A stretch of DNA of 28,159 bases from a virus: positions 1 through 28,159 of IMG/VR virus record IMGVR_UViG_3300046450_002448; one strand, written 5' to 3'. Of this stretch, positions 3,162 to 22,719 are shown in pieces. The notes below the pieces were generated by a model, which was not told the DNA's origin, did no database searches, and saw only the letters and a list, made by a program, of their open reading frames with translations. Position numbers and translations under genes: made by a program. Every line of letters begins with the position of its first letter. Position 1 is the first letter of the stretch.

Positions 3162-3747
3162 AATTTGTGTATGCATTCCAGCGTATGAACAAGTTTATGC
3201 TTATTTTGCAGACAGATTAGCAAAGTTATTTTTACGAGCAGGTAAACTTGGTATTGATATACATATTAAAATACGCTCAGGAAGTGATTTAGCTCGCAAT
3301 AGAAATTTTCTTGTTGAAGATGCATTAGCAATTAATGCTAGTCATATTTTGTGGTTAGATGGAGATATAATATTTCCAGATGATTTAATAGAAAGATTAT
3401 TAGCACATAACGTTGATGTAGTAGCAGGAATATACCCTACCCGGAATACTCCAATTGATAGTACAGGTTTTTATAGTTATTCACATGAACTATTAGAACG
3501 GGCATATATTACAAAAAATGGTCCTGATCTACTTGAAATAGAAGCTTGTGGTTTAGGCTGTATGTTAGTATCAATAAATATATTCAAGCAAACTCAACCA
3601 CCGTGGTTTCAATTTACTCCAAATCATGGAGAAGATATATACTTTTGTAAAAAAATAGATGCTACAATTTATGCAGATAGAAAAATTAGTCTTGAATTAC
3701 AGCATATAGGAATAAAGCCATATACTCATGAGGATATAAATGTTTAA
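3145..3747 (+). CDS. GT-A-type (GT2-like) glycosyltransferase
   Basis: 200 residues, short for a glycosyltransferase but compatible with a minimal GT-A domain. An N-terminal strand (ICVCIPAYEQV) is followed by a GSDLARNRN segment (46-54) as in phage GT-A proteins, then ILWLDGDIIFPDD (68-80), in which Asp72-Gly-Asp74 is the metal and nucleotide-sugar binding DxD motif. VVAGIYPTR follows shortly after, and an EACGLGCMLVS segment sits where the acceptor loop normally lies. The chosen ATG overlaps the upstream gene by 17 nt. Sugar specificity is unknown. Confidence 0.75.
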   Translation: MDKPNKICVCIPAYEQVYAYFADRLAKLFLRAGKLGIDIHIKIRSGSDLARNRNFLVEDALAINASHILWLDGDIIFPDDLIERLLAHNVDVVAGIYPTRNTPIDSTGFYSYSHELLERAYITKNGPDLLEIEACGLGCMLVSINIFKQTQPPWFQFTPNHGEDIYFCKKIDATIYADRKISLELQHIGIKPYTHEDINV

Positions 3748-4876
3748 TGAAATCTTTTTAAAGGTAACAACCAACACACTAAATCCACTTAGAAAACAAA
3801 TTACATTTAACGATTTAAAAAAAATTCCTGATAACCCATTTACTGTTGACCGACTTGCTTGGAATGCTATTAACCTAAACAAAGCCGAAAAAATATATGT
3901 TGATACTGTAACAGATTTAACAAATATACCTGATGCTAAAACAGATCTTATATGGTTAATAAACAACAAATATAATATACGTTCTGATTTTCCTTGGAAT
4001 TGGCGACCACGAAAATCTTTAGCAATGAGTAAAATATGGGATTTTCCCCGTGTTAGCTCGGCTACAGGAAAAGTCATTACATGGGATTGTGTTCGACTTA
4101 TTCCTAACATACCATTAGCAGAATTATTAAAATTGGAAAAGGTACAATCAAAAATCCAAGCAAGTTATAATAGTAGTAGTTTTGATATTGTTCACATATC
4201 GTTTGATGAAAGACAAGCCGAGTTTACATTTCAGCGAGTAAAATATAAAGCTCCAAAATTATTACAGGTTAAAGGAGTTGATAGTATTGCTAAAGCACAT
4301 CAAGAAGCAGGAAGGATATCAAAATCCGAAATGGTATGGATTGTAGATGCTGATGCAATTTTGTTTGATACGTTTGAATTTGATTTTCAACCTCCAGAAA
4401 GCAAACGCAATAATACAATATATGTCTGGCAAGCAAAAAATCCTATTAATGGATTAATATATGGTCACGGAGCAATTAAATTAGTGCCAAAATCTGTATT
4501 AGAAACATTAAATGTAGCGAATGTTGATGTTGCTACAAGTGCCTTGGCAAATTTTATTCAAGTTGAAGAAGTTAGTAACTATCATCAGTTTAATACCGAT
4601 CCTTTTAATACATGGAGAACAGCATTCCGTGAATGTGCTAAACTTGCTCGCGGTGCAAATTATTTTGGTAATAAAGATCTTTATCCAGGAAATGAAAAGA
4701 ATAAAGAGTATTTAAATGCTTGGTGCAAAAAAGGCAAAGACGAAAAATTTGGAAAATATTGTATCAAAGGCGCTAATGCTGGTAAGGCGTATGGAAAAAA
4801 TAAAAAAAATGATATGCATTTAATAAACAATTATGAATGGTTAAAGCAAGAATTCATTAAGAGTAATACCGTATAA
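3740..4876 (+). CDS. glycosyltransferase-like protein with DxD motif
   Basis: 378 residues. The central region reads DIVHISFDER (149-158), then about 40 residues later MVWIVDADAILFDTF, in which Asp203-Ala-Asp205 resembles a GT-A DxD motif after a hydrophobic strand. KGVDSIAKAHQEAG (178-191) lies between them. The C-terminal third (YGHGAIKLVPKSVL, then NTWRTAFRECAKL) looks like an acceptor-side domain. I recall similar arrangements in marine T4-like phages but cannot confirm a named family. It overlaps the previous gene by 8 nt and ends the operon. A TATAAATA motif overlaps its stop codon. Confidence 0.6.
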   Translation: MFNEIFLKVTTNTLNPLRKQITFNDLKKIPDNPFTVDRLAWNAINLNKAEKIYVDTVTDLTNIPDAKTDLIWLINNKYNIRSDFPWNWRPRKSLAMSKIWDFPRVSSATGKVITWDCVRLIPNIPLAELLKLEKVQSKIQASYNSSSFDIVHISFDERQAEFTFQRVKYKAPKLLQVKGVDSIAKAHQEAGRISKSEMVWIVDADAILFDTFEFDFQPPESKRNNTIYVWQAKNPINGLIYGHGAIKLVPKSVLETLNVANVDVATSALANFIQVEEVSNYHQFNTDPFNTWRTAFRECAKLARGANYFGNKDLYPGNEKNKEYLNAWCKKGKDEKFGKYCIKGANAGKAYGKNKKNDMHLINNYEWLKQEFIKSNTV

Positions 4877-8343: not shown

Positions 8344-9174
8344 ATGAAAATGAAAAAGCTGTGGGTATTTGGAACAAGCAATACTGCTGGTAGTTGTGAC
8401 CATGAATACATGGAAAACTGTTATACTAAAATAATTCACGATAATACTAATTATATTGTTAAAAATTTAGCAAAGGGCGGTATTAGTTTTGAAAGCCAGA
8501 TACGATATATATATTATTTTTTAGAGCAGTTGCAAGAAAAACCTGATTCAATTTTAATTGAATTTCGGGGGTTGGGGTTTTCTTCAAGCCCGTTAGGATA
8601 TATGCCAAATAATGTTTTAAGCGATATGTATTCTTACTTAAAAATAATTATAAGAAGATTTGAAGATAATATCAATAATAATGAATATGCAAATATTCAA
8701 CCTCTCTATGGTAATACAAAGACACGAGAAGAAGTATTTTTTAATGGAATATCTACAAGGAATAGTTATAGGTTTAAAGAAGAATGGTATCAAAACCTTG
8801 AGTTACCTAAACATTTCGTTGTTAGCGAAGAAATAGAAACATACCTTAAGGTTCACAATAACTTAATTCGTACAAATTATATGTTTATAGAACAGCGTAT
8901 TTTATCTATCTATGGTTTATTATTAACTATAAAAAATTTAGGTATAACACCCTATTGGTTTTTTATAGACCCCTTCACAGAAGAGAAAAACATAACAACT
9001 CCGTTGGTAAGAGACCAACTCGATTCAATGTATGTAGGGTATTTTAAAAATAATGAATGGCTTTCTTTTTTAACTCATATTAAATTACAAGATGAGTTAT
9101 TGTGTGAATGTTCGCATCCTAATGAAAAAGCTCATGAAATGATAGCTAACGATTTAATACCTCAATTATGTTAA
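8344..9174 (+). CDS. SGNH/GDSL-hydrolase-like protein, copy 1 of 3
   Basis: 276 residues, no signal peptide. WVFGTSNTAGSC at the N-terminus corresponds to SGNH block I with Ser12 as the candidate nucleophile (GTS instead of GDS). VKNLAKGGIS (about 39-48) fits block II with its conserved Gly. The C-terminal ECSHPNEKAHEM segment matches block V (D-x-x-H-P-N), with Glu255 in place of Asp and His258 as the candidate base. A clear block III Asn was not found. The family hydrolyses esters, often acetyl groups on sugars. The stop overlaps the next start by 7 nt. It may deacylate or acylate a glycan; the substrate is unknown. Confidence 0.65.
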   Translation: MKMKKLWVFGTSNTAGSCDHEYMENCYTKIIHDNTNYIVKNLAKGGISFESQIRYIYYFLEQLQEKPDSILIEFRGLGFSSSPLGYMPNNVLSDMYSYLKIIIRRFEDNINNNEYANIQPLYGNTKTREEVFFNGISTRNSYRFKEEWYQNLELPKHFVVSEEIETYLKVHNNLIRTNYMFIEQRILSIYGLLLTIKNLGITPYWFFIDPFTEEKNITTPLVRDQLDSMYVGYFKNNEWLSFLTHIKLQDELLCECSHPNEKAHEMIANDLIPQLC

Positions 9175-9980
9175 TACAAGCATTTGGAACCAGCAATACA
9201 TTTGGTAATTGCGGTGAAGATAATCTAATAAGTTTAGATAGCACCTGGCCGTATATTCTAGCCAGTAAAGCCAACGTATCTGTAGAAAATTTATCGTGTA
9301 TTGCTATAACTAATCCCGAACTTGGAGTTATGTTAGATTATTATATTAAACCAAATAGTATAGTAATTGCAGAACTTAATCATCCAACAAGACCAAGAGC
9401 TGGTGTAAGTTTTGATGGGTTAGCATCTCCGGATAATATTACTAGATTGCATGACAAATTAGATAAACGTGATCTAGTTACACGTGAAGCGTACGAAAAG
9501 GGAGGGCTACCTTTAGAAAATAATAATTTACCTAGTCATTTTGTTCCTATTTCTCCACCTAAGGATGTAACAAAACGTATAGTTAAACACATGGAAGATC
9601 AACAGCTCAGGGAATTTGCTAATGACGCAAATCTTTTAGCAAAATCATTATCTAAACATTGGATTTTTAGTACAAGTTATGTTGTAGATCAGTTTGCGTT
9701 AGTATGTATGATGAAGGCAATTTGTGATAAACATAATAGTACGTTCATGTTTTATGGATGGCATGGTGATTTTAGAAGTTGTATACTACCAGGATGGGCA
9801 ACAATTATTGAACAACTAGTACCACAAAACTTACTTACTGGTGTTAAAAAGAGTTACTTTAAAGATTACAACAAAGAAGCATGGGAAAAAGAAACATGCA
9901 GTGATGGCCACCAGAATGAAGTAATTCACAAATATGTAGCAGAGAAAATTTATGAAGAAACTATGGGTATTTGGAACTAG
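9168..9980 (+). CDS. SGNH/GDSL-hydrolase-like protein, copy 2 of 3 (divergent C-terminal motif)
   Basis: 270 residues. AFGTSNTFGNC at the N-terminus places the candidate nucleophile at Ser9, and VENLSCIAIT matches the block II position less well than the paralogues. The C-terminal motif is CSDGHQNEVIH (244-254): Asp246 and His248 are only two apart rather than three, and His-Pro-Asn becomes His-Gln-Asn. The active site may therefore be altered. The last 29 nt overlap the start of copy 3, so its C-terminus is encoded by the DNA that encodes the paralogue's N-terminal motif. Its ATG overlaps the stop of copy 1 by 7 nt and no clear ribosome site precedes it, which suggests translational coupling. 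Confidence 0.6.
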   Translation: MLIQAFGTSNTFGNCGEDNLISLDSTWPYILASKANVSVENLSCIAITNPELGVMLDYYIKPNSIVIAELNHPTRPRAGVSFDGLASPDNITRLHDKLDKRDLVTREAYEKGGLPLENNNLPSHFVPISPPKDVTKRIVKHMEDQQLREFANDANLLAKSLSKHWIFSTSYVVDQFALVCMMKAICDKHNSTFMFYGWHGDFRSCILPGWATIIEQLVPQNLLTGVKKSYFKDYNKEAWEKETCSDGHQNEVIHKYVAEKIYEETMGIWN

Positions 9981-10965
9981 CCATAGTGCTGGATCATGCC
10001 AAATAAAAGATGAATCAATATCGAGATTCTTTGGTCCGCCGTCTAAGAAACATCAATTTTTAGTTAATCCATACCCTAAACTCATTCATAATGAAACAGA
10101 ATATTCAGTGAAAAATTTTGCCATACCGGGTATTGATCATGATATGCAATTATTTTTTATTGCTACTTTAGTAGGTTTAGTTAAAGAGCGGCCTGATGTA
10201 ATTATAATAGAACATAGAAGTTTGTTTGAAAAAACCTGGCCTGCCTTTTTTGATTCGATATTTAATACTATTTCACGCGACCCTACAACACCCGATGGCC
10301 CAGAAGGATTTGGCATTATAGCACGTTATTTTAGTACATTATGTGAACATGTGGCTATTCGTTCTGATGTTAAAAATGATATATACTTCTGGTTTTACTC
10401 TATATATAACACGTTAAGTGAGTTACAACAACTAATAAATTCAAATTCCTCACTTTTTTTAAGTGACAAAATGAACCTAGGGCTTAAAGATATCTCTGCA
10501 AAAAATAGTATTAATTACCGTGAGGCAACAAAACTCTTAAATACTCTTGGTATTAACTATGAAAAAAAATGGCTTACACACGAACAATGGATAGAATTTG
10601 TAAGATTCTATTCTATGAATATTCATTGTAATAGTATAGATGTGTTTAAAAAAATAATGGATTTTATTGGAACAATAAATTTTTTAAAAAACTTAGGAAT
10701 AAAAGTAAAATGGTTTCAAATAGATCCTATGCCGCCAACAAGATGTTATCTTAGAAATTTACAAAATAAATTAGTAGAAGATGCCTTACTTGAAGATTGT
10801 ATATATCCATACAGCAAACATTCGGACAATCAAGATGAGAAATATTTTGAATATGATGAAAAGTTATTCTTCCAGTTAGCTGATAAATCTTTTTGCTGTG
10901 ATTGCGGACATCCAAATGATAAAGCACATAGAATTTTTGCAGATATTATAAAAAATGAACTATAA
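9952..10965 (+). CDS. SGNH/GDSL-hydrolase-like protein, copy 3 of 3
   Basis: 337 residues, the longest copy. WVFGTSHSAGSC gives Ser10 as the candidate nucleophile; VKNFAIPGID matches block II; the C-terminal DCGHPNDKAHRIF holds a proper block V with Asp317 and His320 three apart. The extra length relative to copy 1 lies in a helical middle region (about 100-240) that might be an acceptor-binding insert. It starts 29 nt inside copy 2 and ends 11 nt inside the radical SAM gene, so four proteins are encoded as one overlapping unit. Of the three copies this has the most canonical catalytic motifs. Confidence 0.65.
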   Translation: MKKLWVFGTSHSAGSCQIKDESISRFFGPPSKKHQFLVNPYPKLIHNETEYSVKNFAIPGIDHDMQLFFIATLVGLVKERPDVIIIEHRSLFEKTWPAFFDSIFNTISRDPTTPDGPEGFGIIARYFSTLCEHVAIRSDVKNDIYFWFYSIYNTLSELQQLINSNSSLFLSDKMNLGLKDISAKNSINYREATKLLNTLGINYEKKWLTHEQWIEFVRFYSMNIHCNSIDVFKKIMDFIGTINFLKNLGIKVKWFQIDPMPPTRCYLRNLQNKLVEDALLEDCIYPYSKHSDNQDEKYFEYDEKLFFQLADKSFCCDCGHPNDKAHRIFADIIKNEL

Positions 10966-11968
10966 AGAAATAGAAATCGAATGTACTGGTACATGCAATG
11001 CAATGTGCCCGTCATGCTCAAGGCATACTATTGATGCCGACAACCTTAAATGGTATTCTCGTAAAAACATATTGCCACAAGGTAACATAGATGTTGGTGC
11101 ATTTGAACAGAATTTTGTAAATGGATTAGGTGATCATAAAATTGAAAAAATTAATTTTCAAGGATCTTTTAGTGATCCGTTAACACATCCTCATTTTATT
11201 AAACTACTCGCCTTAGGTGCATCAATACCTAGTGTTTACGATATAGCCGTATATACAAATGGATCATTACGTACTCCTAAGTTCTATAAAGAATTAGCAA
11301 AATATTTGAATTCTGAAGATCGTAAATTATTTTTCTCAGTTGACGGATTACGTAACAAGAATGCCATTTATCGAAAAGGAACCTTTTGGGGTAAAATTTT
11401 AGAAAATATGAAAGCATTTACAGGAGCTGGTGGCAAAGCCGTGTGGAAAGCAGTTTTCTTTGAACAACATATGTCTGATTATAGAGAGATGGAAAAAATG
11501 GCAATGCGTTTAGGCTTTCACGGATTTCATGTTACAATGAATCGTAAATCATTAAAGGAGAGGCAAGCAATTTTTAAACTATCAAATCAGCCTGATGACG
11601 TTGATCCAGAACACGATCTCGATGATATGTATATGACTCATGCCGAAAATCAATCAGTATCCTGTAGACATTTAGATGACCAATATGCATTTATTGGAAA
11701 TGATACAAGTGTTTATGCTTGTTGTGATTTATGGGGAGATTTATCTGAAAGTGGCAAAAATACACGTTCAATGGCATTTGAAACTACACAATACGGAACA
11801 CTTACAAATAGTTTAAAAAAGTTTAAATTCCACGAAATTGTAGAGAACAAGTTTTACAAAAAATTTAATCATTCTATTACTGATAAACCATGTGCTTTAT
11901 GTGTTAAAAATTGTGGTGATAATGCAGACTCACTTGAGTTTCGAACTATGCATAGAACAAAAGATTAA
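10955..11968 (+). CDS. radical SAM protein with SPASM-like C-terminal cysteines
   Basis: 337 residues. Cys14-x3-Cys18-x2-Cys21 (CNAMCPSC) is the radical SAM iron-sulfur cluster motif, close to the N-terminus as expected. FQGSFSDPLTHP (about 66-77) occupies the usual GGE-like position, followed by a YTNGSL strand and an FSVDG strand. The C-terminal third has clustered cysteines: SCRH, ACCD about 20 residues later, and CALCVKNCGD near the end, as in SPASM/twitch domains binding extra Fe-S clusters. Such enzymes typically modify peptides, and some act on sugars or aminoglycosides. It overlaps SGNH copy 3 by 11 nt. It is a divergent relative of the three radical SAM genes at 15166-18127. Confidence 0.85.
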   Translation: MNYKEIEIECTGTCNAMCPSCSRHTIDADNLKWYSRKNILPQGNIDVGAFEQNFVNGLGDHKIEKINFQGSFSDPLTHPHFIKLLALGASIPSVYDIAVYTNGSLRTPKFYKELAKYLNSEDRKLFFSVDGLRNKNAIYRKGTFWGKILENMKAFTGAGGKAVWKAVFFEQHMSDYREMEKMAMRLGFHGFHVTMNRKSLKERQAIFKLSNQPDDVDPEHDLDDMYMTHAENQSVSCRHLDDQYAFIGNDTSVYACCDLWGDLSESGKNTRSMAFETTQYGTLTNSLKKFKFHEIVENKFYKKFNHSITDKPCALCVKNCGDNADSLEFRTMHRTKD

Positions 11969-12008: not shown

Positions 12009-12093
12009 GGGGAGGCTGAGCAAGTGGCGAGCCCAACTGACTGTAAATCAGCCGTCGATGACTGTGAAGGTTCGACTCCTTCCCTCCCCACCA
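12009..12093 (+). tRNA. tRNA-Tyr (anticodon GTA), CCA encoded
   Basis: The acceptor arms 12009-12015 and 12083-12089 pair perfectly over 7 bp. The T arm is GAAGG / TTCGACT / CCTTC (12066-12082). The anticodon loop CTGTAAA carries GTA, and a long variable arm follows, as expected for the type II bacterial tRNA-Tyr. Discriminator A at 12090 and encoded CCA at 12091-12093. The outermost base pair of the anticodon stem appears mismatched. Confidence 0.93.
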
Positions 12094-12118: not shown

Positions 12119-12367
12119 ATGGAAATTAAGTTAACTGGCAATGTAGTTGTTAGACATGAAAAAGTACCAGATTGTGAATGGTGTGATAAATCAAAACAAC
12201 TATTAGACGAAAATAATATACCTTATACAACAATTATATCTGATAAAAAGTTCTTTGGTGAATTGTTTCGGGTAACTAATAGCGGAAAATTACCGCAAAT
12301 TTTTATGGGTGGAAAATATATTGGACAGTATTTTGAATTGGAGAAATACATCAGCGAACAAACTTAG
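12119..12367 (+). CDS. glutaredoxin
   Basis: 82 residues, a normal size for a small glutaredoxin. The redox motif Cys19-Glu-Trp-Cys22 follows an unusual N-terminal strand (VVVRHEKVPD). KSKQLLDENNIPYTTI after it matches the helix-strand pattern; LPQIFMGGKYIG (about 58-69) holds the cis-Pro loop and glutathione-site glycines. It likely reduces ribonucleotide reductase or other disulfides, as in T4-like phages. It sits between two tRNA genes, and its TAG stop ends at 12367, one base before tRNA-Cys begins. A GTAGGAT ribosome site lies before the ATG. Confidence 0.9.
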   Translation: MEIKLTGNVVVRHEKVPDCEWCDKSKQLLDENNIPYTTIISDKKFFGELFRVTNSGKLPQIFMGGKYIGQYFELEKYISEQT

Positions 12368-12443
12368 GTGGCCGTGGCTGAGCGGCTTAGGCAACAGTTT
12401 GCAAAACTGTTTTACGCAGGTTCGACTCCTGTCGGCCACTCCA
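12368..12443 (+). tRNA. tRNA-Cys (anticodon GCA), CCA encoded
   Basis: The acceptor arms 12368-12374 and 12433-12439 pair over 7 bp. The anticodon stem ACAGT/ACTGT encloses the loop TTGCAAA with anticodon GCA. The T arm has the TTCGACT loop at 12421-12427. Discriminator T at 12440 (U73, the known identity base of tRNA-Cys) and encoded CCA at 12441-12443. It abuts the glutaredoxin stop codon directly. Confidence 0.93.
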
Positions 12444-13069: not shown

Positions 13070-13146
13070 GGTCCCATCGTCTAGGCGGCCTAGGACACCG
13101 GCCTGTCACGCCGGCAACATGGGTTCGAATCCCATTGGGACCGCCA
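13070..13146 (+). tRNA. tRNA-Asp (anticodon GTC), CCA encoded
   Basis: The acceptor arms 13070-13076 and 13136-13142 pair over 7 bp. The anticodon stem CCGGC/GCCGG encloses CTGTCAC with anticodon GTC; the T arm is ATGGG / TTCGAAT / CCCAT. Discriminator G at 13143 (the Asp identity base) and encoded CCA at 13144-13146. It is more GC-rich than the surrounding genes, as structural RNAs in AT-rich genomes are. Confidence 0.95.
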
Positions 13147-13202: not shown

Positions 13203-14435
13203 ATGACAAATTCTTCTCGGTGGGATGGTATAAAAAGACCATATACAGATGATGATGTTGATCGATTAAGTGGTTCTATTAAAATTGATTATACCATAGC
13301 ACAACTTGGAGCAGAAAAGCTCTGGAATAAATTCCATTCACAAAATTATGTTAGTGCATTGGGTGCATTAACAGGTAACCAAGCAATGCAACAAGCAAAA
13401 GCAGGGCTTGATTCGGTTTATCTTAGTGGTTGGCAAGTTGCTGGTGATGCGAATGATAGTTTAGAAATGTATCCTGATCAATCACTGTATGCGGCTAATA
13501 GTGTACCAATCGTAGTAAAGCGAATTAATAATACATTTCAACGTGCAGACCAAATACAAACAATGGAAGGTGAAGGAGATATAGATTATTTTCTTCCTAT
13601 TGTTGCAGACATGGAATCAGGATTTGGCGGTGTACTTAATACACATGAGTTAATGAAGGACATGATTGAAGCAGGCGCCGCAGGTGTGCATTTAGAAGAT
13701 CAATTATCATCTGCTAAAAAATGCGGACACATGGGCGGAAAGGTACTTGTACCAACTCAAGAAATGGTTTCTAAACTTATTGCCTCAAGACTTGCCGCAG
13801 ATATTATGGGTGTTGATACTGTTTTAATTGCAAGAACAGATTCGTTAGCAGGTGCATTATTAGTTACTGATGCCGACGAATACGACCATAAATTCATTAC
13901 CGGTGAACGAACAAGTGAGGGGTTCTATAAAGTAAATGCAGGAATGGACCAAGCAGTTTCAAGAGGACTTGCTTATGCTCCATATTGTGATTTAATTTGG
14001 ATGGAGACTTCCTTGCCTGACATTGGCGAGTGTAAAGAATTTTGTACAGAAATACGTAAAGAGCATCCAAATAAGATGTTTGCATATAATTGCTCTCCTT
14101 CTTTTAATTGGAAAGCAAAATTAAGTGATGCTGACATCCGTAGTTTTAAAGATGAACTTGGCGACTTAGGAGTAGTATATCAGTTTATAACCCTTGCTGG
14201 ATTTCATAGTTTGAATTATAGTATGTTTGATTTAGCATGTAAATATAGAGATACTGGCATGACAGGTTTTGTTGAACTACAGCAAAATGAATTTGCCGCA
14301 CAAGACAGAGGCTTTACCGCAGTTAAACATCAAAGAGAAGTTGGTGCAGGTTACTTTGATGAAATAGGACAAGTATGTACAGGTAGTTCCAATTTGAGTG
14401 CAACAAAAGGATCAACTGAACAAGAACAGTTCTAA
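13203..14435 (+). CDS. aceA: isocitrate lyase
   Basis: 410 residues from the ATG at 13203, preceded by AAGGA; upstream in-frame codons cross tRNA-Asp, so the longer frame is rejected. The enzyme cleaves isocitrate to glyoxylate and succinate, the first step of the glyoxylate shunt. Signatures are intact and in order: LSGWQVA (74-80), the metal-binding ADMESGFGG loop with Asp136, HLED (163-166), catalytic KKCGHMGGK with Cys174, [23 protein letters not shown] (296-303) and the C-terminal STEQEQF. It resembles E. coli AceA along its length and is about 24 residues shorter, mostly N-terminal. Flanked by phage tRNAs and viral genes, it is an auxiliary metabolic gene. No malate synthase is present in the window. 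Confidence 0.95.
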
Positions 14436-14449
14436 AAAAAGGGACAAAT

Positions 14450-14866
14450 GTGGCAAGCACTTTTCATTTAGCAATTCCTGCCGGGGATTTACACAATGCA
14501 ATTTATTTTTATTGCAATGTATTAGGTTGTACAAAAGGCAATTCAGAAATTAACAACTGGCAGGATATAAATTTTTGGGGTAATGAACTTACATTACATG
14601 CGTCAAAAAATAAACAAACTGGAGAACAACACGATGTTGATATGGGTCGTGTATTAGTTCCGCATTTTGGAGTACATGTTGAAGCAGAAGAATTTCAAGC
14701 TCTTAAAAAACGATTAATACAAAATAATATAAAATTTATTGACGAACCTTATATAAGATTTAAAGGCGAACTCTTAGAACAAGAAACAATGTTTATAGAA
14801 GATCCAAACGGTAATATTTTAGAACTTAAAACAATGGTTAATCCTGACGAATTATTTACGAGATAA
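14450..14866 (+). CDS. VOC-superfamily (glyoxalase/dioxygenase-fold) protein
   Basis: 138 residues, one complete VOC domain of two beta-alpha-beta3 modules. STFHLAIPAGDL at the start supplies His6; VPHFGVHVEAEEF gives His72; IEDPNGNILELK gives Glu125, so a His-His-Glu metal site is plausible. IRFKGELLEQETMF is typical of a widespread bacterial VOC group often labelled glyoxalase or extradiol dioxygenase, whose reaction is mostly unknown. The start is GTG at 14450, which reuses the last base of an out-of-frame ATG; an AAAGGGAC ribosome site precedes it. It is 14 nt after isocitrate lyase and almost certainly co-transcribed; a role in handling an aldehyde or alpha-keto acid is speculation. Confidence 0.85.
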   Translation: MASTFHLAIPAGDLHNAIYFYCNVLGCTKGNSEINNWQDINFWGNELTLHASKNKQTGEQHDVDMGRVLVPHFGVHVEAEEFQALKKRLIQNNIKFIDEPYIRFKGELLEQETMFIEDPNGNILELKTMVNPDELFTR

Positions 14867-14870
14867 TAAT

Positions 14871-15164
14871 ATGCACAGATATACAGTAGAAATTCTTTAT
14901 CATTTTGAATGTGATTTATGTCATCAATGGTGGAGTTATGCAGTAACTCCAACCTCATTAACAGATTATAATTTAACTCTTTCAAATGATGAGAAGGTGC
15001 ATTGTATGCATTGCGGACAAACAAAAGAAGTAGAAGTTAAACCTAATGTTTATATATCTGATAAGAAAGCACCGTATGAACCTAATCCAGAAAATAATTC
15101 TAGGATGAAAATAGCAAGTATCATTGATAGAGAAATACGGAGTGCATCAAAGATACGACAATGA
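14871..15164 (+). CDS. small zinc-ribbon protein
   Basis: 97 residues with two cysteine pairs, CDLC (about 15-18) and CMHC (about 45-48), a classic two-knuckle zinc ribbon. HQWWSYA between them resembles zinc ribbons of small phage and bacterial regulators. The C-terminal half is polar and Lys-rich. It sits 4 nt after the VOC gene and ends 1 nt before the preferred start of the first tandem radical SAM gene. DNA/RNA binding or protein contacts are possible; function unknown. Confidence 0.7.
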   Translation: MHRYTVEILYHFECDLCHQWWSYAVTPTSLTDYNLTLSNDEKVHCMHCGQTKEVEVKPNVYISDKKAPYEPNPENNSRMKIASIIDREIRSASKIRQ

Positions 15165-15165
15165 C

Positions 15166-16215
15166 ATGCCGTTATTATATCAACCACGACGAATAGAACT
15201 TGAATTAAGTTCATATTGTAATGCGAAATGTATTGCTTGTACTCGTCTTCAAATTAATAATTATACTGGTCTTCTTTATAAAAATCCTTATACAGTTTTA
15301 AATAAAAATTTAGATTTCGAGTTCTTACAAGAAAAAGTTTTTTCCCGCCCTTGGTTTAAGGATATTCGACAATTTGGATCTGTTGGTAACAATGGAGATC
15401 CAATGATGAATCCTGAAATAGCAACAATATTTGAACAGGCTAGAAAAGTTAATCCTACCGTTGGATTGTTTGTACATACAAATGGTTCAATTGGCAGGAA
15501 AGATACTTGGAAGCGGCTTGCTAAACTGTTTACTACAAGCAGAGACAAATTTTCTTTTTCTATTGATGGATTAGAAGATACAAACCATTTATATCGTGCC
15601 GGTGTTTCGTGGAAAAAAGTTATGAGCAATGTCAAAATATTTATTGGTGCTGGCGGTCGTGCTTCTTGGAAGTTTATTCCTTTTAAACACAATAAGCACC
15701 AAATACCAGAAGCATTTGAATTATCTAAAAAATTAGGATTTATTGGTTTTCAAATTATTAAAAATTTACTTGAAAAAAATGAATTAGATATAGCAGATAG
15801 GGTATTAAAGTTGGTGTTAGCAAATAAACATAAAGTCGTTAACGAATACAGATATGAACCTATAAGATCGCCTTTATGGCAGAAAAGAATAGATATTGAG
15901 CCTGTGTGTACAGGTAGAAAAGTTGTGTATATATCATCTGATAAAAAATTCTATCCTTGTTGTGATTTTTATTATTGTAACGAAAAAAAACACAAAGTAT
16001 TTTATGATTGGTGGAACGACGAAGGACCGTGGAACGATTTGTCTATACATTCTGTTGAGAGTGCATTAAGTAATAAGAAAATGTTTGAATTATGGGAGAC
16101 GTTTAGAACACCTGAAATGATCTCAATTTGTGCTGAAGCATGTGCCTGCGAAGGTGGGACAGCTTTCAAAAAAGGAGATTTAGAGGATCTTAAAAAAGAA
16201 AAATATACACTATGA
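15166..16215 (+). CDS. radical SAM/SPASM-like protein, tandem copy 1 of 3
   Basis: 349 residues from the ATG at 15166, one base after the preceding stop; this start gives the same spacing to the cysteine motif as in the paralogues, so the longer frame from 15124 is not preferred. Cys18-x3-Cys22-x2-Cys25 (YCNAKCIACTR) is the radical SAM cluster site; GNNGDPMMNP replaces the GGEP-type segment; HTNGS and FSIDGLED follow. The C-terminal region has a Cys at about 245, a FYPCCDFYYC cluster and CAEACAC near the end, a SPASM-like pattern for auxiliary Fe-S clusters. The substrate is unknown; peptide or glycan modification is possible. Confidence 0.88.
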   Translation: MPLLYQPRRIELELSSYCNAKCIACTRLQINNYTGLLYKNPYTVLNKNLDFEFLQEKVFSRPWFKDIRQFGSVGNNGDPMMNPEIATIFEQARKVNPTVGLFVHTNGSIGRKDTWKRLAKLFTTSRDKFSFSIDGLEDTNHLYRAGVSWKKVMSNVKIFIGAGGRASWKFIPFKHNKHQIPEAFELSKKLGFIGFQIIKNLLEKNELDIADRVLKLVLANKHKVVNEYRYEPIRSPLWQKRIDIEPVCTGRKVVYISSDKKFYPCCDFYYCNEKKHKVFYDWWNDEGPWNDLSIHSVESALSNKKMFELWETFRTPEMISICAEACACEGGTAFKKGDLEDLKKEKYTL

Positions 16216-17168
16216 GTTACTCGCCTAAAACTATTGAGTTAGAACTAAGTTCATATTGTAATGCACGATGTCTTGCTTGTACTCGATATCAATTTAACGA
16301 TAACCAATTTGTATTAAATCCTTTAGGTGTTAGAAATAAAAATTTAGATGTTAACTTTCTAGAGGATTGTCTCTTTTCTCAAAAATGGTTTAAAGATGTA
16401 GAACGAATTTTATGTATAGGAAATAACGGAGATGCATTAGCAAATCCTGATATAGTTAAAATAGTATCAGATATAAGAACGTATAATACTACTACAAACC
16501 TTGGCATCGAAACAAATGGATCGATAGGTACTCCAGACACATTCAAAAAATTATCATCGTTTTTTCAAACACCTCATGGAGAAGTTACCTTTTCAATTGA
16601 TGGGTTAAAAGATACAAATCATATCTATAGGCATGGTGTATTATGGAATAAACTTATGAGAAATGTAAAAACATATATTGATAATGGAGGACAAGCAAAA
16701 TGGAAATGGATTACATTCAAACATAATGAACATCAAGTAGATGAAGCACGAGAGTTATCAAAACAGTTAGGATTTACAGATTTTAACGTTCACCCAAATT
16801 TATTGCCTTTAGATAAAGCAGATTATATTTTAAAACATGTAAATCGTTCAGGAGACTTAGAAGAAAAACAAATAGTACTAGACAACAAAAAACCGATGTG
16901 GGCCGAAAGTACAGTTAATCCTCAATGCGAGACCCGCTCGTTAGTATACATATCAAGCGATAAAAAATTCTATCCTTGTTGTGATTTTTATAATAACACA
17001 TCTGACAATAACGCAGAATTTTTTAATTGGTGGGAAGATACCGATTGGAATGATCTAACCAAATATTCTATTGAAGAAGCTCTTAATAGTTATAAAGTAA
17101 AAGAATTAGAAAAAACTTGGGAAAATAAAAAAGTTTGCTTCCTTTGTAAACAAAAGTGTGAAGCATGA
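16212..17168 (+). CDS. radical SAM/SPASM-like protein, tandem copy 2 of 3
   Basis: 318 residues, starting in a 4-nt ATGA overlap with copy 1. Cys16-x3-Cys20-x2-Cys23 (YCNARCLACTR) binds the radical SAM cluster. GNNGDALANPD, ETNGSIG and FSIDGLKDTNHIYR parallel the other copies. C-terminal cysteines: PQCETR, FYPCCDFYN and CFLCKQKC at the end, which suggest a SPASM-like domain with auxiliary clusters. A 33-bp stretch of DNA around the FYPCC codons is identical to copy 1, pointing to recent duplication or gene conversion. Substrate unknown. Confidence 0.88.
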   Translation: MSYSPKTIELELSSYCNARCLACTRYQFNDNQFVLNPLGVRNKNLDVNFLEDCLFSQKWFKDVERILCIGNNGDALANPDIVKIVSDIRTYNTTTNLGIETNGSIGTPDTFKKLSSFFQTPHGEVTFSIDGLKDTNHIYRHGVLWNKLMRNVKTYIDNGGQAKWKWITFKHNEHQVDEARELSKQLGFTDFNVHPNLLPLDKADYILKHVNRSGDLEEKQIVLDNKKPMWAESTVNPQCETRSLVYISSDKKFYPCCDFYNNTSDNNAEFFNWWEDTDWNDLTKYSIEEALNSYKVKELEKTWENKKVCFLCKQKCEA

Positions 17169-18127
17169 CGTACATACCAGAAAGAATAGAAGTCGAAATT
17201 AGCTCATATTGTAATGCAAAATGCTTGGGTTGTAATAGAATAAATTTTAAGGAAGATGGTACAGTTTGGAAAAATCCTAATATAACATATAATTTAAATC
17301 TTAGTGTAGATTTTTTAGAGGATAAAATATTTTCAACAACTTGGTTTAAAGATGCATCTTATTTTATAACAGTTGGTAACAACGGAGATGCATTAGCCAA
17401 TCCAGAAGTTGCAGATATTTTTGAAAAGGCACGAGAATATAATCCACATATAAGTTTTGGTTTACACACAAATGGATCATTAGGTAAAAAGGAAACATTT
17501 GAGCATCTTGCAAAATTATTTTCTTCACAAAATGGTCTATTAGAATTTGCTATAGATGGATTAGAGGATACCAATCATTATTATAGAGTCGGTGTAGAGT
17601 GGAATAAAATTATGGAAAACGCTCAAACATTTATTAATGCTGGAGGAAATGCCGGTTGGAAGTTTATTCCTTTTAAACACAATAAACATCAAATAGCCGC
17701 CGCAAAACAATTATCAAAACAATTAGGTTTTAATAAATTTAAAGTTGTAAACAACCTACTACCTAACGATACTCTCCTAGATAATTTTCATGCTAAAGGT
17801 ACACAAATATTAGATAGGTATAATGATATTCCTAAATCAATTACTAACAATGAATCGCCATGGGTAACTAGAAATTGTAATATAAAACCACAATGCACAC
17901 ACAACAATATGATATACATATCATCAACGAAAAAATTGTATCCATGTTGCTGGTTCGATGCAGAATGGAATCCATCTGTTAAAAATTGGTGGGAAGATAC
18001 TAATTGGAATGATCTTAGTGTATATACTGTTGAAAGCATTATGCAGAATAATAAACTAAAAGAACTTATAAATTCTTTTAATAAGGAAAAAATAATCAAA
18101 ACCTGCCAAAATTTATGCAGTTTATAG
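17165..18127 (+). CDS. radical SAM/SPASM-like protein, tandem copy 3 of 3
   Basis: 320 residues, starting in a 4-nt ATGA overlap with copy 2. Cys16-x3-Cys20-x2-Cys23 (YCNAKCLGCNR) is intact, followed by GNNGDALANPE, HTNGSLG and FAIDGLEDTNHYYR. The C-terminal cluster is reduced: PQCTHNN, LYPCCWFDAE and CQNLCSL, with fewer cysteines than copy 1, so the auxiliary cluster content may differ. A 30-bp block (17656-17685) is identical to copy 1. It is the last gene of the overlapping array; a sigma-70-type promoter for the next gene begins 10 nt after its stop. Confidence 0.87.
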   Translation: MTYIPERIEVEISSYCNAKCLGCNRINFKEDGTVWKNPNITYNLNLSVDFLEDKIFSTTWFKDASYFITVGNNGDALANPEVADIFEKAREYNPHISFGLHTNGSLGKKETFEHLAKLFSSQNGLLEFAIDGLEDTNHYYRVGVEWNKIMENAQTFINAGGNAGWKFIPFKHNKHQIAAAKQLSKQLGFNKFKVVNNLLPNDTLLDNFHAKGTQILDRYNDIPKSITNNESPWVTRNCNIKPQCTHNNMIYISSTKKLYPCCWFDAEWNPSVKNWWEDTNWNDLSVYTVESIMQNNKLKELINSFNKEKIIKTCQNLCSL

Positions 18128-18137
18128 CAAAAAGAGG

Positions 18138-18166
18138 TTGACTTTTCAATAAATAGGTAGTATAAT
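18138..18166 (+). promoter_or_regulatory. sigma-70-type promoter
   Basis: TTGACT at 18138-18143, 17-nt spacer, TATAAT at 18161-18166, with the sequence AGGTAG immediately before the -10 box, as in the promoter at 21946-21974. The predicted start near 18173 leaves a leader of about 50 nt before the ATG at 18224. Confidence 0.75.
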
Positions 18167-18223
18167 AATACTATTAAAGGCTTTTTAACACACTTAACAC
18201 TTTGGCTAACATTGGAGAAAAAC

Positions 18224-18787
18224 ATGGCAAAAATAAACCTTCGTAAATCTGCGGCAATTCAAAAAGAACTACAAGCACGAATTGCTAATATTAATGTTGA
18301 TACAATAGTTGATGTCAACGAGTTCACAAAACCACAAGATGCGGTTGCTGAACGACTACAGGAAACAATTGATAACATACAAATGCGGACACATCTGCTC
18401 ACTACTCTTTACAGTATAAGAGCTAAAACTGCTCAGGTAAATTCCAAATGCGGAGTAACTGCTCTGCTTGCAGAAGAAGTCCGGCTTGATAAAGAAATTT
18501 GTTTATATACGGAACTTAGTAGAAGTAAACCTCGTCGTAATTTTGATGAAATTGAGGGACAATTAGAAAAAATTAAAAATAGAAAAGAAGAAAGTGTTAG
18601 TAGCAGTGATACTATTAGTGTTTCTATTTTTGATAGAGAACAAGTTTCGACATTTAAAGAAACAGTAAAGACTTTAAAAAAGTCAAAACAGCAAGCAAAC
18701 GATAAATTGCTTGAAAATAATGTTAAGAAATCCATAGAATTAAGTATTGAAGAAGAGACAATTCTCAGTAATGAGAATTTGATCTAA
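18224..18787 (+). CDS. hypothetical protein, predicted helical/coiled coil
   Basis: 187 residues from the ATG at 18224, which has GGAG 6 nt upstream; a TTG at 18212 is the alternative start but lacks a ribosome site. The protein is highly charged and probably almost all alpha-helical (AIQKELQARIANIN; LDKEICLYTELSRSKPRRNFDEIEGQ; FKETVKTLKKSKQQANDKL). No enzymatic motif, signal peptide or membrane segment is visible. With its own strong sigma-70-type promoter it is probably expressed early or middle. Family not recognised. Confidence 0.6.
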   Translation: MAKINLRKSAAIQKELQARIANINVDTIVDVNEFTKPQDAVAERLQETIDNIQMRTHLLTTLYSIRAKTAQVNSKCGVTALLAEEVRLDKEICLYTELSRSKPRRNFDEIEGQLEKIKNRKEESVSSSDTISVSIFDREQVSTFKETVKTLKKSKQQANDKLLENNVKKSIELSIEEETILSNENLI

Positions 18788-18987
18788 GTTAGAGGTGGAT
18801 GCTAGTAAAAGAGGCTACATTTAAACTCAGTTCTACATGGACTTATAAACCCTATAAGCATTGATTCCGGGCACATTGATTGTTTGTTGATCCCGGTAGC
18901 AAGGGCCTTTGTTGTTCGTTGTTTGTAGTTTTTTTGTTTTTTGATTAGCCATCTTTAAACCCGTCCCCCTTTATCTTAAATACGGTT
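18788..18987 (+). other. 200-nt non-coding region with two hairpins and a T-rich tract
   Basis: No credible ORF. A perfect 6-bp hairpin CTTATA/TATAAG with 5-nt loop lies at 18842-18858. CCGGG (18867-18871) and CCCGG (18892-18896) can pair across a 20-nt loop and are each preceded by TTGAT, so the region is also a short direct repeat. T7-G-T6 at 18929-18942 follows. The region is more GC-mixed than its neighbours and could hold a small RNA or a 5' leader for the next gene. No known riboswitch was recognised. Confidence 0.4.
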
Positions 18988-19401
18988 ATGGAACTTGTTC
19001 AAGATGAAAACCTCCGCGGAGAGCTTCGTCATGCAATGGAGACACAATTTAGGTATAAATTGTATCATAATATTGCTTTTCGATATTTTCCAAGCATGGG
19101 TATAAAAGATATTATTCAAGGCTTTGCCAACGACGAAATAGGATTAGTTGGTATTCTTCATTTACATTATACACCCGAAAAAGGCAAGATAGGCCTGTGG
19201 AAATCTATTTGGTACGATTCCGAAGAAGAAGGTACCCGAGTAGGACAAGCAATAGCCGATGCCTCCCCATTTGATGCAGAAAAAGTAGCAATGATGCTTA
19301 TTAAAGAACAATTAAGCATCATTCGATCTGCTGAAACCCCTGAACCCGACGACTGGTTAGATTCGCTAAATACAGACAAAGATACAGTATTATTGAATTA
19401 A
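18988..19401 (+). CDS. hypothetical protein
   Basis: 137 residues, family not recognised. The protein is probably alpha/beta: an N-terminal helix (LRGELRHAMETQ), a GIKDIIQGFANDEIG segment, a strand LVGILHLHYT and an acidic C-terminus (ETPEPDDWLD). No membrane segment or cysteine motif. No ribosome site is visible before the ATG, and it follows a long non-coding stretch, so start or regulation may be unusual. It precedes the ExbB-like gene by 94 nt. Confidence 0.55.
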   Translation: MELVQDENLRGELRHAMETQFRYKLYHNIAFRYFPSMGIKDIIQGFANDEIGLVGILHLHYTPEKGKIGLWKSIWYDSEEEGTRVGQAIADASPFDAEKVAMMLIKEQLSIIRSAETPEPDDWLDSLNTDKDTVLLN

Positions 19402-19459
19402 AATATAATATTGTTTTTAGCATCAGTTATTAAGCCTGAGAGATAAACACGAAGGGAAA

Positions 19460-19495
19460 GTCTTGATGCACACAAAATAAAGTTGGAGTCAAGAC
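19460..19495 (+). promoter_or_regulatory. leader hairpin abutting the ExbB-like start codon
   Basis: GTCTTGA (19460-19466) and TCAAGAC (19489-19495) are perfect inverted repeats with a 22-nt loop. The ExbB-like ATG starts at 19496, directly after the 3' arm, and the GGAG ribosome site (19485-19488) is the last part of the loop. Folding could reduce ribosome access. Confidence 0.4.
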
Positions 19496-19954
19496 ATGAA
19501 AGCACTATTACGATGGTGGCTTATTTTTTGTTTATCAGTGCTTGCCGGAAGTGTAGCGGTTTATTTCGGTTTACATCAAGATTTATATGATGGTGATCAA
19601 ACCAAATTAAGTTTTCTTATATTAGCAGTCTTTTGTTGCACATCTGTTTGGATTGGTCGGTGTACCAAAATATCTGAACATCAATTTCAAAATATAGACT
19701 TAGGGTGGTTTATTTCTGAAGCATGCCTTGCCTTGGGTATGATTGGAACTGTAACAGGCTTTCTATTAATGCTCAGTGGTGCATTTGCAAATATTGATTT
19801 AGCAAATACAGCGACAATTCAAACAGCATTATCCCAAATGGCGTTAGGTATGAGTACTGCCTTATATACAACACTGGTTGGCTTAATTTGTTCTCTGACA
19901 TTAAAAATTCAACTAGTTAATGTTGAAAACGAGAACCTACACAATGGAGAGTAA
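19496..19954 (+). CDS. MotA/TolQ/ExbB-family proton channel subunit
   Basis: 152 residues with four likely membrane segments (about 6-25, 37-54, 72-95, 112-137). The pattern LGMIGTVTGFLLMLSGAF (80-97) and then LSQMALGMSTALYTTLVGLI (112-131) matches the last two helices of ExbB/TolQ/MotA proteins, which form the pentameric proton-conducting core. It is shorter than ExbB (about 240) because the large cytoplasmic domain is missing. It is followed directly by an ExbD/MotB-like protein, the expected partner. The family converts proton flow to mechanical work in the periplasm. A hairpin and GGAG precede its ATG. Confidence 0.8.
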   Translation: MKALLRWWLIFCLSVLAGSVAVYFGLHQDLYDGDQTKLSFLILAVFCCTSVWIGRCTKISEHQFQNIDLGWFISEACLALGMIGTVTGFLLMLSGAFANIDLANTATIQTALSQMALGMSTALYTTLVGLICSLTLKIQLVNVENENLHNGE

Positions 19955-20693
19955 ATCACGATATAAAAGCAGTTTGGCATTTACCGACTTGCTTTTCAAC
20001 ATATTAATCGGCTTTGCGTTCATGTTTATAATAGCATTCCTTTTGATTAATCCTGTACAAAAAGATGCTGACATTGAAGCTAAAGCTGAATTTATGATTA
20101 TAATGTCATGGGATGATCAATCTGCATATGACATAGATTTATGGATGCAGGATCCTGTAGGTAACATAGTTGGATTCCCTAATATGCATGCCGGGTTATT
20201 ACATTTAGATAAAGATGATCTTGGCAAATCTAATGATTCAGTTACAATGCGTGATGGTACAGTAAAACAGATTTATTTAAATCGAGAAGTAATGACAATT
20301 AGAGGTATTGTGCCAGGTGAATATATTGTTAATAATCACTTATATTCTATAAAGTCCGCTAATGGTGAAGGCGCACCAATGGAAGTAACAACAAAAATAA
20401 TAAAACTTAATCCTTATAGGGAAGTACATACTGGGATTGTTATTTTACCTCGCCGAGGTAGTGAAGAAACAGTTATAAGATTTACAATTGATCGTGAAGG
20501 TCATGTAAAATCAACGAATAAAAGGCAAAAGAAATTTGCAGGGAAACGTGTACCAACTGGGATTAATCCTGGTCTTGGTAATACACCAATGAATGCCGAC
20601 CCCGAAGGAGAAGGGGAACAAATTGGAACTAGAAGAAATAATGTTAGTGTTCCTGCTGATGATGATGAAATACATAGAAATGATGGACTGTAG
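19944..20693 (+). CDS. ExbD/MotB-like single-pass protein with large periplasmic beta domain
   Basis: 249 residues from ATG 19944 (11-nt overlap with the ExbB-like gene); an in-frame ATG at 19920 is an alternative start. A short basic N-terminus leads to one membrane helix, FTDLLFNILIGFAFMFIIAFLLI (13-35), with Asp15 where ExbD/MotB proteins carry their essential proton-binding Asp. The periplasmic part is not an ExbD or OmpA-like domain: MSWDDQSAYDIDLWMQDPVGN (from about 54) and IVPGEYIVNNHLY recall the beta-sandwich of YfaP/DUF2135-like proteins, which may bind ligand or surface polymer. A proline/glycine/acid-rich tail of about 60 residues follows. This combination is unusual. Confidence 0.7.
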   Translation: MESKSRYKSSLAFTDLLFNILIGFAFMFIIAFLLINPVQKDADIEAKAEFMIIMSWDDQSAYDIDLWMQDPVGNIVGFPNMHAGLLHLDKDDLGKSNDSVTMRDGTVKQIYLNREVMTIRGIVPGEYIVNNHLYSIKSANGEGAPMEVTTKIIKLNPYREVHTGIVILPRRGSEETVIRFTIDREGHVKSTNKRQKKFAGKRVPTGINPGLGNTPMNADPEGEGEQIGTRRNNVSVPADDDEIHRNDGL

Positions 20694-20713
20694 GTTTTTA
20701 GAGGAGAATAGTT

Positions 20714-21226
20714 ATGTTAACTTTTAGTTTTTTAATAGTAGCATGGTTAGTATTGCTTACTATATTTTTATGGGACTTAATACAACATGGTGTTGATAAA
20801 CTGTACATGTTTGTTATAATACCATTAACATTATTTCTTACTGTAACAACTTACATTACAGTACAGAGTATGTTAGGATACCCAACAGATAAAGTAAAAG
20901 AAGGAAAATTTACTGTAATTTCATCAGCAGTTAAGGAACCAGATTGGATATTTTACTGGGTAGCCTATCATGGTGATGAAGAACCAATTGCATATCGATT
21001 TCCATACTCAGAAGAAGATCATGATAAACAAGAAGAACTATCTGGACGACAAGCAGACGGTGAAATTATTCAAGGTGAACTTGTCGACGAGGATGCTATG
21101 AATCAAACTCAAAGTAAAAGTGTTTTAGGTGAAATTGAATTTTACACATTTGATGTTTCTCAATTGATCCCAAAAAGTGAGCCGATTCCTGACAAACCTA
21201 AACATATGGTCCTTCCTAACCACTGA
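20714..21226 (+). CDS. two-helix membrane protein, third member of the ExbB/ExbD-like module
   Basis: 170 residues. Two strong N-terminal membrane segments (about 3-22 and 30-50) are followed by about 115 polar residues. The loop between the helices is short and charged (WDLIQHGVDKL), so the long domain is probably on the same side as the N-terminus. The polar part contains DWIFYWVAYHGDEEPIAYRFPY and a very acidic stretch. An AGAGGAG ribosome site precedes the ATG, and 20 nt separate it from the ExbD-like stop, so co-transcription is likely. Family not recognised; it may be an accessory to the channel. Confidence 0.65.
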   Translation: MLTFSFLIVAWLVLLTIFLWDLIQHGVDKLYMFVIIPLTLFLTVTTYITVQSMLGYPTDKVKEGKFTVISSAVKEPDWIFYWVAYHGDEEPIAYRFPYSEEDHDKQEELSGRQADGEIIQGELVDEDAMNQTQSKSVLGEIEFYTFDVSQLIPKSEPIPDKPKHMVLPNH

Positions 21227-21227
21227 T

Positions 21228-21332
21228 ATGAGCATTTATGAAATGTTACGGGCAATCGGCCATCCGGTTGATTTGCTTGGAAATCCTCTCAACAAGAAAA
21301 AGATATATTCGGTTGACATTCCTGACCACTAA
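21228..21332 (+). CDS. 34-aa small ORF following the membrane module
   Basis: The ATG at 21228 starts one base after the stop of the 170-aa membrane protein (TGATATG). The product has the hydrophobic/turn pattern IGHPVDLLGNPLNKKK and ends in DIPDH. Its last 4 nt overlap the end of the convergent gene on the minus strand. Tight spacing suggests it is translated by coupling, but at this length chance cannot be excluded. Confidence 0.4.
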   Translation: MSIYEMLRAIGHPVDLLGNPLNKKKIYSVDIPDH

Positions 21333-21952
21333 GATGATGGTGGAAAATTTCTATTACGGAATTGAATAAACTCGTGCCAATATAACATACTTGTATGCAG
21401 TTTATCAATATCAACAGGGTCTGTTATATACTCAACGAAATCATAATTCTTATTAAAAATTATATCTTCTAAATTTAATTCAATACAATATTTGTTTACG
21501 CCTTGTATTACAACAGGAGGATTAAATATTTCTTGTCTATCAAATCGTTTAACATTTGTACGTTCAAAATATGAGTTACCATTTGGGAGAAAACATAAAA
21601 TAGATGGATCATCACTATTAACAAACAAATTACTTCTCCACTCGTTTTGAAGAATTAATGTTTTAATTTTTTCCGATTGAAATATATGCTTACCTTCAAC
21701 CTTCATTAAGCTAGTTGTATCAGTTATGTAATTCCATGCTTCTTGAGTCTTGCATAATGCATGGTAATATGATGCTATACACAAATATTTTCCAATTTCC
21801 GAGGTACTACATATTTCAAACTGTTTATCTTTTTTAACTATATTATAATAACTATAACCCAGAGCATCTTGCAATGCCCATGTAAGAAAATGTCCACAAT
21901 GGCCTATAGCATTGAAAATATAAATTAGTTGTTTGTTGTTTTTGGTTGACAT
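21329..21952 (-). CDS. hypothetical protein
   Basis: 207 residues, family not recognised. The N-terminus (QLIYIFNAIGHCGHFLTWALQDALGY) is a hydrophobic strand followed by a Gly/His loop and a helix, reminiscent of a nucleotide- or PAPS-binding loop of sulfotransferase-like phage proteins (GGNFL type), though the match is too weak to call. The rest is mixed alpha/beta with a Trp/Phe-rich end. It is convergent with the 34-aa ORF and divergent from the 22007 gene. Its start codon overlaps the -35 box of the plus-strand promoter, so the two genes may not be transcribed at the same time. Confidence 0.55.
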   Translation of the reverse strand: MSTKNNKQLIYIFNAIGHCGHFLTWALQDALGYSYYNIVKKDKQFEICSTSEIGKYLCIASYYHALCKTQEAWNYITDTTSLMKVEGKHIFQSEKIKTLILQNEWRSNLFVNSDDPSILCFLPNGNSYFERTNVKRFDRQEIFNPPVVIQGVNKYCIELNLEDIIFNKNYDFVEYITDPVDIDKLHTSMLYWHEFIQFRNRNFPPSS

Positions 21953-21974
21953 ATTGATTATAAGGTAGTATAAT
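21946..21974 (+). promoter_or_regulatory. sigma-70-type promoter of the 22007 gene
   Basis: Perfect TTGACA at 21946-21951, 17-nt spacer, perfect TATAAT at 21969-21974, with AGGTAG before the -10 box as at 18138-18166. The predicted start near 21981 gives a leader of about 26 nt. The -35 box overlaps the start codon of the minus-strand gene. Confidence 0.8.
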
Positions 21975-22006
21975 ACTTATATATTAATAATTAATGAAAA
22001 GAATAC

Positions 22007-22528
22007 ATGTCAACATACGTTGAATTTACATACGAGCAAGCCCAGAAAGTTTTAGTTGATGAAATGGGATTTAAATGTATTAATAACGTAGATCCAAAAT
22101 CAGAACATTGGGCTGGTAATCCACATACTGACGAATATATATTTGAGCGTATTATAAAGCATAACAATGCTGATGATTTTATGAAGGCATTGTCAGGTAA
22201 AAATTTCCGTTATTCAATTCGTATTTTTTCGTCAGTTGATCGAAACAGTAAAAAAACTAGAGAGTCAGGTTCGGATGCAATTCGTGTTACACTTTATGAT
22301 CTTAAAACTGATCGTCCTGTAAAAGTAGAACGTCGAGTAAATAGAACAGTAAATGCCTTTCATAATATGAAGGAGCGAGCACGAGAACTTTGGAAATATG
22401 TAAACAGTCACAAACATGTGTGTCCAAACTGCGAAGGGCTACTTGTTAAACGAACCGCAAAACGTACTAAACAAGATTTTTTAGGTTGTTCTGCATTTCC
22501 TGAATGTAAACACACACAAAACATATAA
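22007..22528 (+). CDS. protein with C-terminal topoisomerase-type C4 zinc ribbon
   Basis: 173 residues. The N-terminal ~130 residues are a charged alpha/beta domain of unknown type. The C-terminus, CPNCEGLLVKRTAKRTKQDFLGCSAFPECKHTQ, is a C4 zinc ribbon of the type found at the end of bacterial topoisomerase I (CPxC...G.F.GCS.FPEC) and in other DNA-binding proteins; the quoted cysteines are at about 139, 142, 162 and 168. A DNA or RNA role is likely. Strong sigma-70-type promoter upstream. Confidence 0.7.
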   Translation: MSTYVEFTYEQAQKVLVDEMGFKCINNVDPKSEHWAGNPHTDEYIFERIIKHNNADDFMKALSGKNFRYSIRIFSSVDRNSKKTRESGSDAIRVTLYDLKTDRPVKVERRVNRTVNAFHNMKERARELWKYVNSHKHVCPNCEGLLVKRTAKRTKQDFLGCSAFPECKHTQNI

Positions 22529-22529
22529 T

Positions 22530-22718: not shown

Positions 22719-22719
22719 A

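Follow-up and report, generated by a model that had tools for sequence, protein, structure and literature searches.

Tandem radical SAM genes in the tail-fibre region of a marine T4-like phage fragment: a local gene expansion with a possible role in glycan modification

Groups of radical SAM genes have been described in several phages. The Campylobacter phages CP220 and CPt10 carry 11 and 12 such genes respectively (PMC2853527), and the report on the marine T4-like genome TARA_ERS488813_N000010 gives 12, along with ATC, paaD and grx (PMC5332604). In pelagimyophages, radical SAM cassettes and glycosyltransferases are found in the host recognition cluster, within the variable tail-fibre region (PMC7029224). 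The DNA analysed here, hereafter the window, comprises positions 1 to 28,159 of the IMG/VR virus record IMGVR_UViG_3300046450_002448. It is a fragment of a T4-like marine phage, and a trio of tandem radical SAM genes lies in its hypervariable tail-fibre region. The locus resembles CP220 and CPt10 in having neighbouring radical SAM genes and sugar-transferase-like genes as an exchangeable module in a T4-related phage; those phages differ in their 11-12 genes per genome, an amidinotransferase, a gut host and distant sequence (PMC2853527). One CP220 protein matches the first protein of the trio at 30% identity over 54%. With TARA_ERS488813_N000010 it shares a T4-like background and many radical SAM genes accompanied by Fe-S assembly genes and glutaredoxin, although the main text of that report names ATC, IscU and PaaD and not a sufBCDSE set, ferredoxins or a reductase (PMC5332604). 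The pelagimyophage cassettes likewise lie with glycosyltransferases in a variable tail-fibre region, but tandem triplication is not described for them and their substrate is not given (PMC7029224).

The trio consists of rS1 (15166..16215, 349 aa), rS2 (16212..17168, 318 aa) and rS3 (17165..18127, 320 aa), and a fourth, older paralogue, rS0 (10955..11968, 337 aa), lies about 4 kb upstream; all are on the plus strand. ATGA overlaps of 4 nt join rS1 to rS2 and rS2 to rS3. The ORFs lie exactly where an earlier reading of the DNA, made from the letters alone (the sequence-only reading), had placed them. The start codon of rS1 at 15166 follows the stop of a zinc-ribbon ORF after 1 base, and rS0 overlaps an SGNH-like gene upstream by 11 nt. 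All four proteins contain the CxxxCxxC motif and the PF04055 barrel that define the radical SAM superfamily. Pfam Radical_SAM scores of rS0 and rS1 (30.8 and 34.6 bits) are above the cut-off of 29.5, while those of rS2 and rS3 (25.7 and 27.5 bits) are below it but significant (1.4e-5 and 4e-6). Pairwise identity within the trio is about 50%, and that between rS0 and rS1 is 24%. The assignment of rS2 and rS3 draws on ORF calling, PF04055 and alignment; that of rS1 draws also on an AF2 model searched with Foldseek, and that of rS0 on synteny and a tree. We are highly confident that rS0 to rS3 are twitch radical SAM proteins.

Four such genes in phage DNA had been called exceptional, which does not hold in view of the phages cited above (PMC2853527, PMC5332604, PMC7029224) and of the following counts. 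A search of IMG/VR with the alignment of the four proteins retrieved at least 575 relatives; the four-sequence alignment was needed for this, as a search of viral contigs with rS2 alone gave no match. Runs of at least three tandem radical SAM genes were observed in 25 of 81 loci (80 fetched loci plus CP220), which were selected for holding a relative and include a few near-duplicates. Adjacent copies in these loci are most often joined, as in the trio, by a 4-nt overlap, which was counted in 34 pairs. Twenty related records contain 2-25 radical SAM matches apiece, for example 13 in 37 kb, and among the matches listed the genes were clustered beyond chance (p < 0.05) in five of the seven records tested. 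Radical_SAM matches made up 37 of 144 proteins within three genes of a relative, against 9 of 141 at a distance of six genes or more; on bacterial contigs carrying about 20 relatives, they were found in 31 of 140 neighbours. Radical SAM islands of phages occur widely in aquatic metagenomes, and the trio itself belongs to an already known kind of phage gene cluster.

The cysteines of the four proteins were then compared with those of 82 relatives. In rS1 the radical cluster is assigned to C18/C22/C25 and the auxiliary cysteines to C248, C265, C266, C322 and C326; the corresponding residues are C16/C20/C23 and C239, C256, C257, C312 and C316 in rS2, and C16/C20/C23 and C244, C261, C262, C314 and C318 in rS3. 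Common to rS0-3 are CxxxCxxC and a single auxiliary set, C-x16-18-CC...CxxxC. Residues C18, C22, C25, D134, R144, W168, C265 and C322 (rS1 numbering) are invariant across the relatives, and C326, C266 and the cysteine at the C248 position are kept in at least 75 of 82, the C248 cysteine of the window proteins falling two columns off in the MAFFT alignment. The motifs are therefore not lost in relatives, a point on which the sequence-only reading had staked its proposal. It had also taken the differing terminal cysteines as a sign of separate substrates. This was not borne out, since the cluster ligands are identical in rS0-3 and the extra, non-ligand cysteines alone differ (C271/C328 in rS1, C309 in rS2, C313 in rS0). 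Four C-terminal cysteines fit one putative [4Fe-4S] cluster, and judged from the sequences the predicted layout in all four proteins is identical, a single auxiliary cluster of the twitch type. One [4Fe-4S] cluster would cleave SAM, and C248, C265 (or C266), C322 and C326 of rS1 would hold the predicted auxiliary cluster. Conserved C-terminal cysteines are too few for a full SPASM domain with two auxiliary clusters and its seven-cysteine motif; the SPASM profile PF13186 gave 15 bits in rS0 and rS2 (cut-off 21.5) and was absent in rS1 and rS3.

For rS1, AF2 gave a confident model (pLDDT 89.2). Its nearest solved folds in Foldseek are SkfB, SuiB, BlsE, MoaA, anSME and BtrN, with SkfB and SuiB the best two, and EpeE, viperin and TYW1 are matched as well. 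Pfam, the cysteine alignment and AF2/Foldseek thus agree on a radical SAM protein with a C-terminal auxiliary-cluster domain, as had been proposed. Below the superfamily level, no curated family profile reached its cut-off with rS0-3, and no known radical SAM family with a defined substrate fits. The best-scoring curated profile for rS1-3 is NF033640 (N_Twi_rSAM); membership was rejected, as rS1-3 reach 52-66 bits and rS0 39 against a cut-off of 170, and the first 108 profile positions are unmatched. The twitch dehydrogenases BtrN and SpeY and the peptide maturases SkfB and SuiB share the barrel and the C-terminal auxiliary-cluster domain with the window proteins, but sequence identity is just 11-16% and their substrates are not transferable. 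A BtrN/SpeY-like dehydrogenase activity, i.e. alcohol oxidation on a cyclitol or sugar, might be imagined as a matter of fold resemblance only.

The origin of the trio was traced by comparison with L004, a locus from a 55-kb IMG/VR record that is collinear with the window. The two share a structural protein at 86% identity, and a conserved phage protein 3' of the trio (18212..18787, plus strand) is found at the same place in L004 with 68% identity. An rS0 orthologue is present in L004 at the same place as in the window (4168-5196), while a single radical SAM gene occupies the position of the window's three. Therefore the trio is, by comparison with this one syntenic relative, a lineage-specific local expansion of one ancestral gene, with rS0 an older paralogue. 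In the tree, the trio groups with the single L004 gene (SH-aLRT 99), and the rS0 proteins of the window and L004 make up a separate clade (support 100); this quick tree gave no branching order within rS1, rS2 and rS3. Alternatively, L004 may have lost two copies. Another possibility is that rS1-3 have no distinct roles and for the most part add gene dosage or are relaxed duplicates, which recombination in a hypervariable region left as a by-product. The difference of one gene against three would be in line with this, as would a further copy-number change at 21329-21952 on the minus strand, where the window has one copy of a gene and L004 has two in tandem (13995-15388). However, rS1-3 are only about 50% identical and retain every cluster ligand together with D134/R144/W168, and therefore each copy looks constrained; moreover, relatives often carry diverged copies in long tandem series. 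Duplication without separate roles seems improbable to us.

The surroundings of the radical SAM genes bear on what they might do. The genes lie between an S74-type tail fibre (S74 named by eye) and the T4-like structural genes gp15 (tail sheath stabiliser), gp13 (head-tail adaptor) and gp18 (tail sheath). A GT-A-like glycosyltransferase family protein is encoded at 3740..4876 (plus strand), and 42 of the 81 loci contain homologues, which for the most part precede the radical SAM gene by 1-4 genes on the same strand. Three SGNH-like genes precede rS0 on the plus strand: 8344..9174, identified by motif alignment; 9168..9980, which is 69% identical to the L004 gene overlapping the rS0 orthologue there; and 9952..10965, recognised from its motifs (GTSHSAG ... 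CGHPNDKAH), which is the gene overlapping rS0. The sole PDB match of the family profile is a GDSL lipase (E 0.024). A strict motif scan for SGNH genes as regular partners matched one gene, the window's own, so the SGNH/radical SAM pairing holds only for this phage and L004. The glycosyltransferase-like and SGNH-like neighbours named by the sequence-only reading are thus present. Also recurrent nearby are additional radical SAM families, methyltransferase-like and SDR-like proteins and hydroxylases, families that have no Pfam match being named by eye. Among the 140 neighbours on bacterial contigs are 7 Glycos_transf_2 proteins, UDP-glucose dehydrogenase and epimerases.

Because GT-A-like, SGNH-like, radical SAM and hydroxylase genes are neighbours in a tail-fibre region, modification of a glycan, of the host envelope or of the virion, is suggested for rS0-3, and we put its probability at roughly 0.4. 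The enzymes would abstract hydrogen at C-H positions that are not activated, either in sugars or in a growing glycan. They would work in successive or alternative steps beside the glycosyltransferases of the phage and its SGNH-like proteins, which would handle acyl groups, and infection would thereby alter a glycan of the host envelope (or of the virion), e.g. against superinfection. Invariant or nearly invariant cluster residues are consistent with this, as are closest folds of the SPASM/twitch type that include two enzymes with sugar-like substrates, BtrN and BlsE, and a position matching the pelagimyophage host recognition cluster (PMC7029224). On the other hand, the GT-A-like gene of the window is 11 kb away from the trio, with opposite-strand genes in between, and the SGNH assignment is at the level of motifs. 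The GT-A-like model (pLDDT 78.5) has glycosyltransferases as top Foldseek matches, but at a low TM-score (about 0.3), and they include the peptide glycosyltransferases SunS and GalNAc-Ts.

The best two folds, SkfB and SuiB, are themselves peptide maturases, and with anSME and EpeE they point to a serious rival, in which the substrate is a protein, either of the virion (tail fibre or baseplate) or of the host. The enzymes would then resemble sulfatase maturases or RiPP maturases in their action, and the hydroxylases and glycosyltransferases would work on that polypeptide too. Hydroxylase families near relatives, a 2OG-oxygenase-like gene (by eye) directly before the single L004 copy and the tail-fibre location would fit such a role, which we consider somewhat less likely than glycan modification. 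A RiPP maturase acting on a precursor peptide was rejected, since no conserved small ORF lies beside the enzyme. The short ORFs and the zinc-ribbon protein had been put forward as precursor candidates; no small-ORF family around relatives recurred in more than three loci, and neither the short ORFs beside the trio nor the zinc-ribbon-like ORF (14871..15164, plus strand; zf-CHY E 0.0084, below cut-off) is shared with L004. NCBIfam peptide-maturase models also match weakly. That nucleotides, tRNA, DNA or another small molecule are the target, as for MoaA, viperin, QueE and TYW1, we regard as improbable: MoaA, viperin and TYW1 are among the fold matches, QueC-like genes lie near some relatives and a PTPS-like gene adjoins a SUF block (below), but in sequence the proteins are no closer to the MoaA, viperin, QueE or TYW1 families, and these QueC- and PTPS-like genes are occasional rather than regular neighbours.

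Radical SAM enzymes are oxygen-sensitive. Contig CAJIZS010000002.1 (89.5 kb) is 99.06% identical to window positions 16979-25141 over 8172 aligned bases; it breaks inside rS2, and its rS3 is 100% identical to that of the window at the amino acid level. Its binning with a Methylophilaceae MAG gives a faint indication of the host. At its far end, amid phage genes, it encodes SufB (802 bits, cut-off 717), SufC, a SufB/D-core fragment, SufS, SufE-like, SufT and SufA-like proteins (L145:14464-18843 and L146:23-1348), and ferredoxins and a reductase are encoded on this contig as well. Several of these ORFs are interrupted, probably through assembly errors. An intact block is present in a separate IMG/VR record (L154:7995-14347) in the collinear order SufB, SufC, short SufD, SufS, SufE, radical SAM, SufT, 4Fe-4S ferredoxin and SufA, with a 4-nt overlap between the radical SAM gene and sufT. 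Upstream lie a 2Fe-2S-type ferredoxin, recognised by its cysteine motif with no Pfam match, and a reductase that Pfam assigns only as a pyridine-nucleotide oxidoreductase. The block recurs in L156 and L188 without the radical SAM gene and in part in L155, and SufB relatives are encoded in 40 IMG/VR loci. SUF-bearing phages were also considered as especially rich in radical SAM genes; of 22 records with SufB, 15 contain one or more (range 0-23), counts that have no baseline and from which enrichment is not claimed, and the radical SAM-rich records G004 and G007 are without SufB.

In the searchable literature, outside which lie most subscription papers and all preprints, only partial sets of viral Fe-S genes are described. 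A near-complete SUF set with redox partners in apparently the same phage looks like a more surprising point than the trio. It also favours glycan modification by rS0-3, whose clusters and electrons could come partly from the phage-encoded SUF proteins, ferredoxins and pyridine-nucleotide reductase; the phage may in this way supply its own radical enzymes. It is conceivable, if doubtful, that certain marine T4-like phages work as radical-enzyme factories with a supply of their own, in which SufBCDSE/T/A, two ferredoxins and the reductase load and reduce the phage's own radical SAM set for envelope or virion modification beyond the host's ability. Should phage radical SAM islands remodel virion proteins or glycans at the surface, this would amount to a broad, unexplored level of chemistry between phage and host. 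Part of this is testable through the SUF/ferredoxin link, which predicts that Fe-S supply is limiting for such phages and that their radical enzymes are at work while infection proceeds.

Further genes were observed around the trio. A glutaredoxin gene (12119..12367, plus strand; TIGR02190, 1.1e-10) lies 3' of rS0 and, by synteny, also in L004. A complete isocitrate lyase gene is located at 13203-14435 (NF011645, 694 bits, KKCGH motif present); a malate synthase to pair with it was not found in the window, the L004 record or the co-binned MAG, and aceBA is known from a T4-like genome (PMC5332604). Directly after the lyase, a VOC/glyoxalase-like protein is encoded at 14450-14866, which is absent from L004. 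Adjacent membrane-type ORFs at 19496-20693, ExbB/MotA-like and ExbD-like by eye, are conserved in L004 (76% and 62%), the ExbD-like second ORF having no PHROG match. Genes for tRNA-Tyr (12009-12093), tRNA-Cys (12368-12443) and tRNA-Asp (13070-13146) are scattered among rS0, glutaredoxin and isocitrate lyase.
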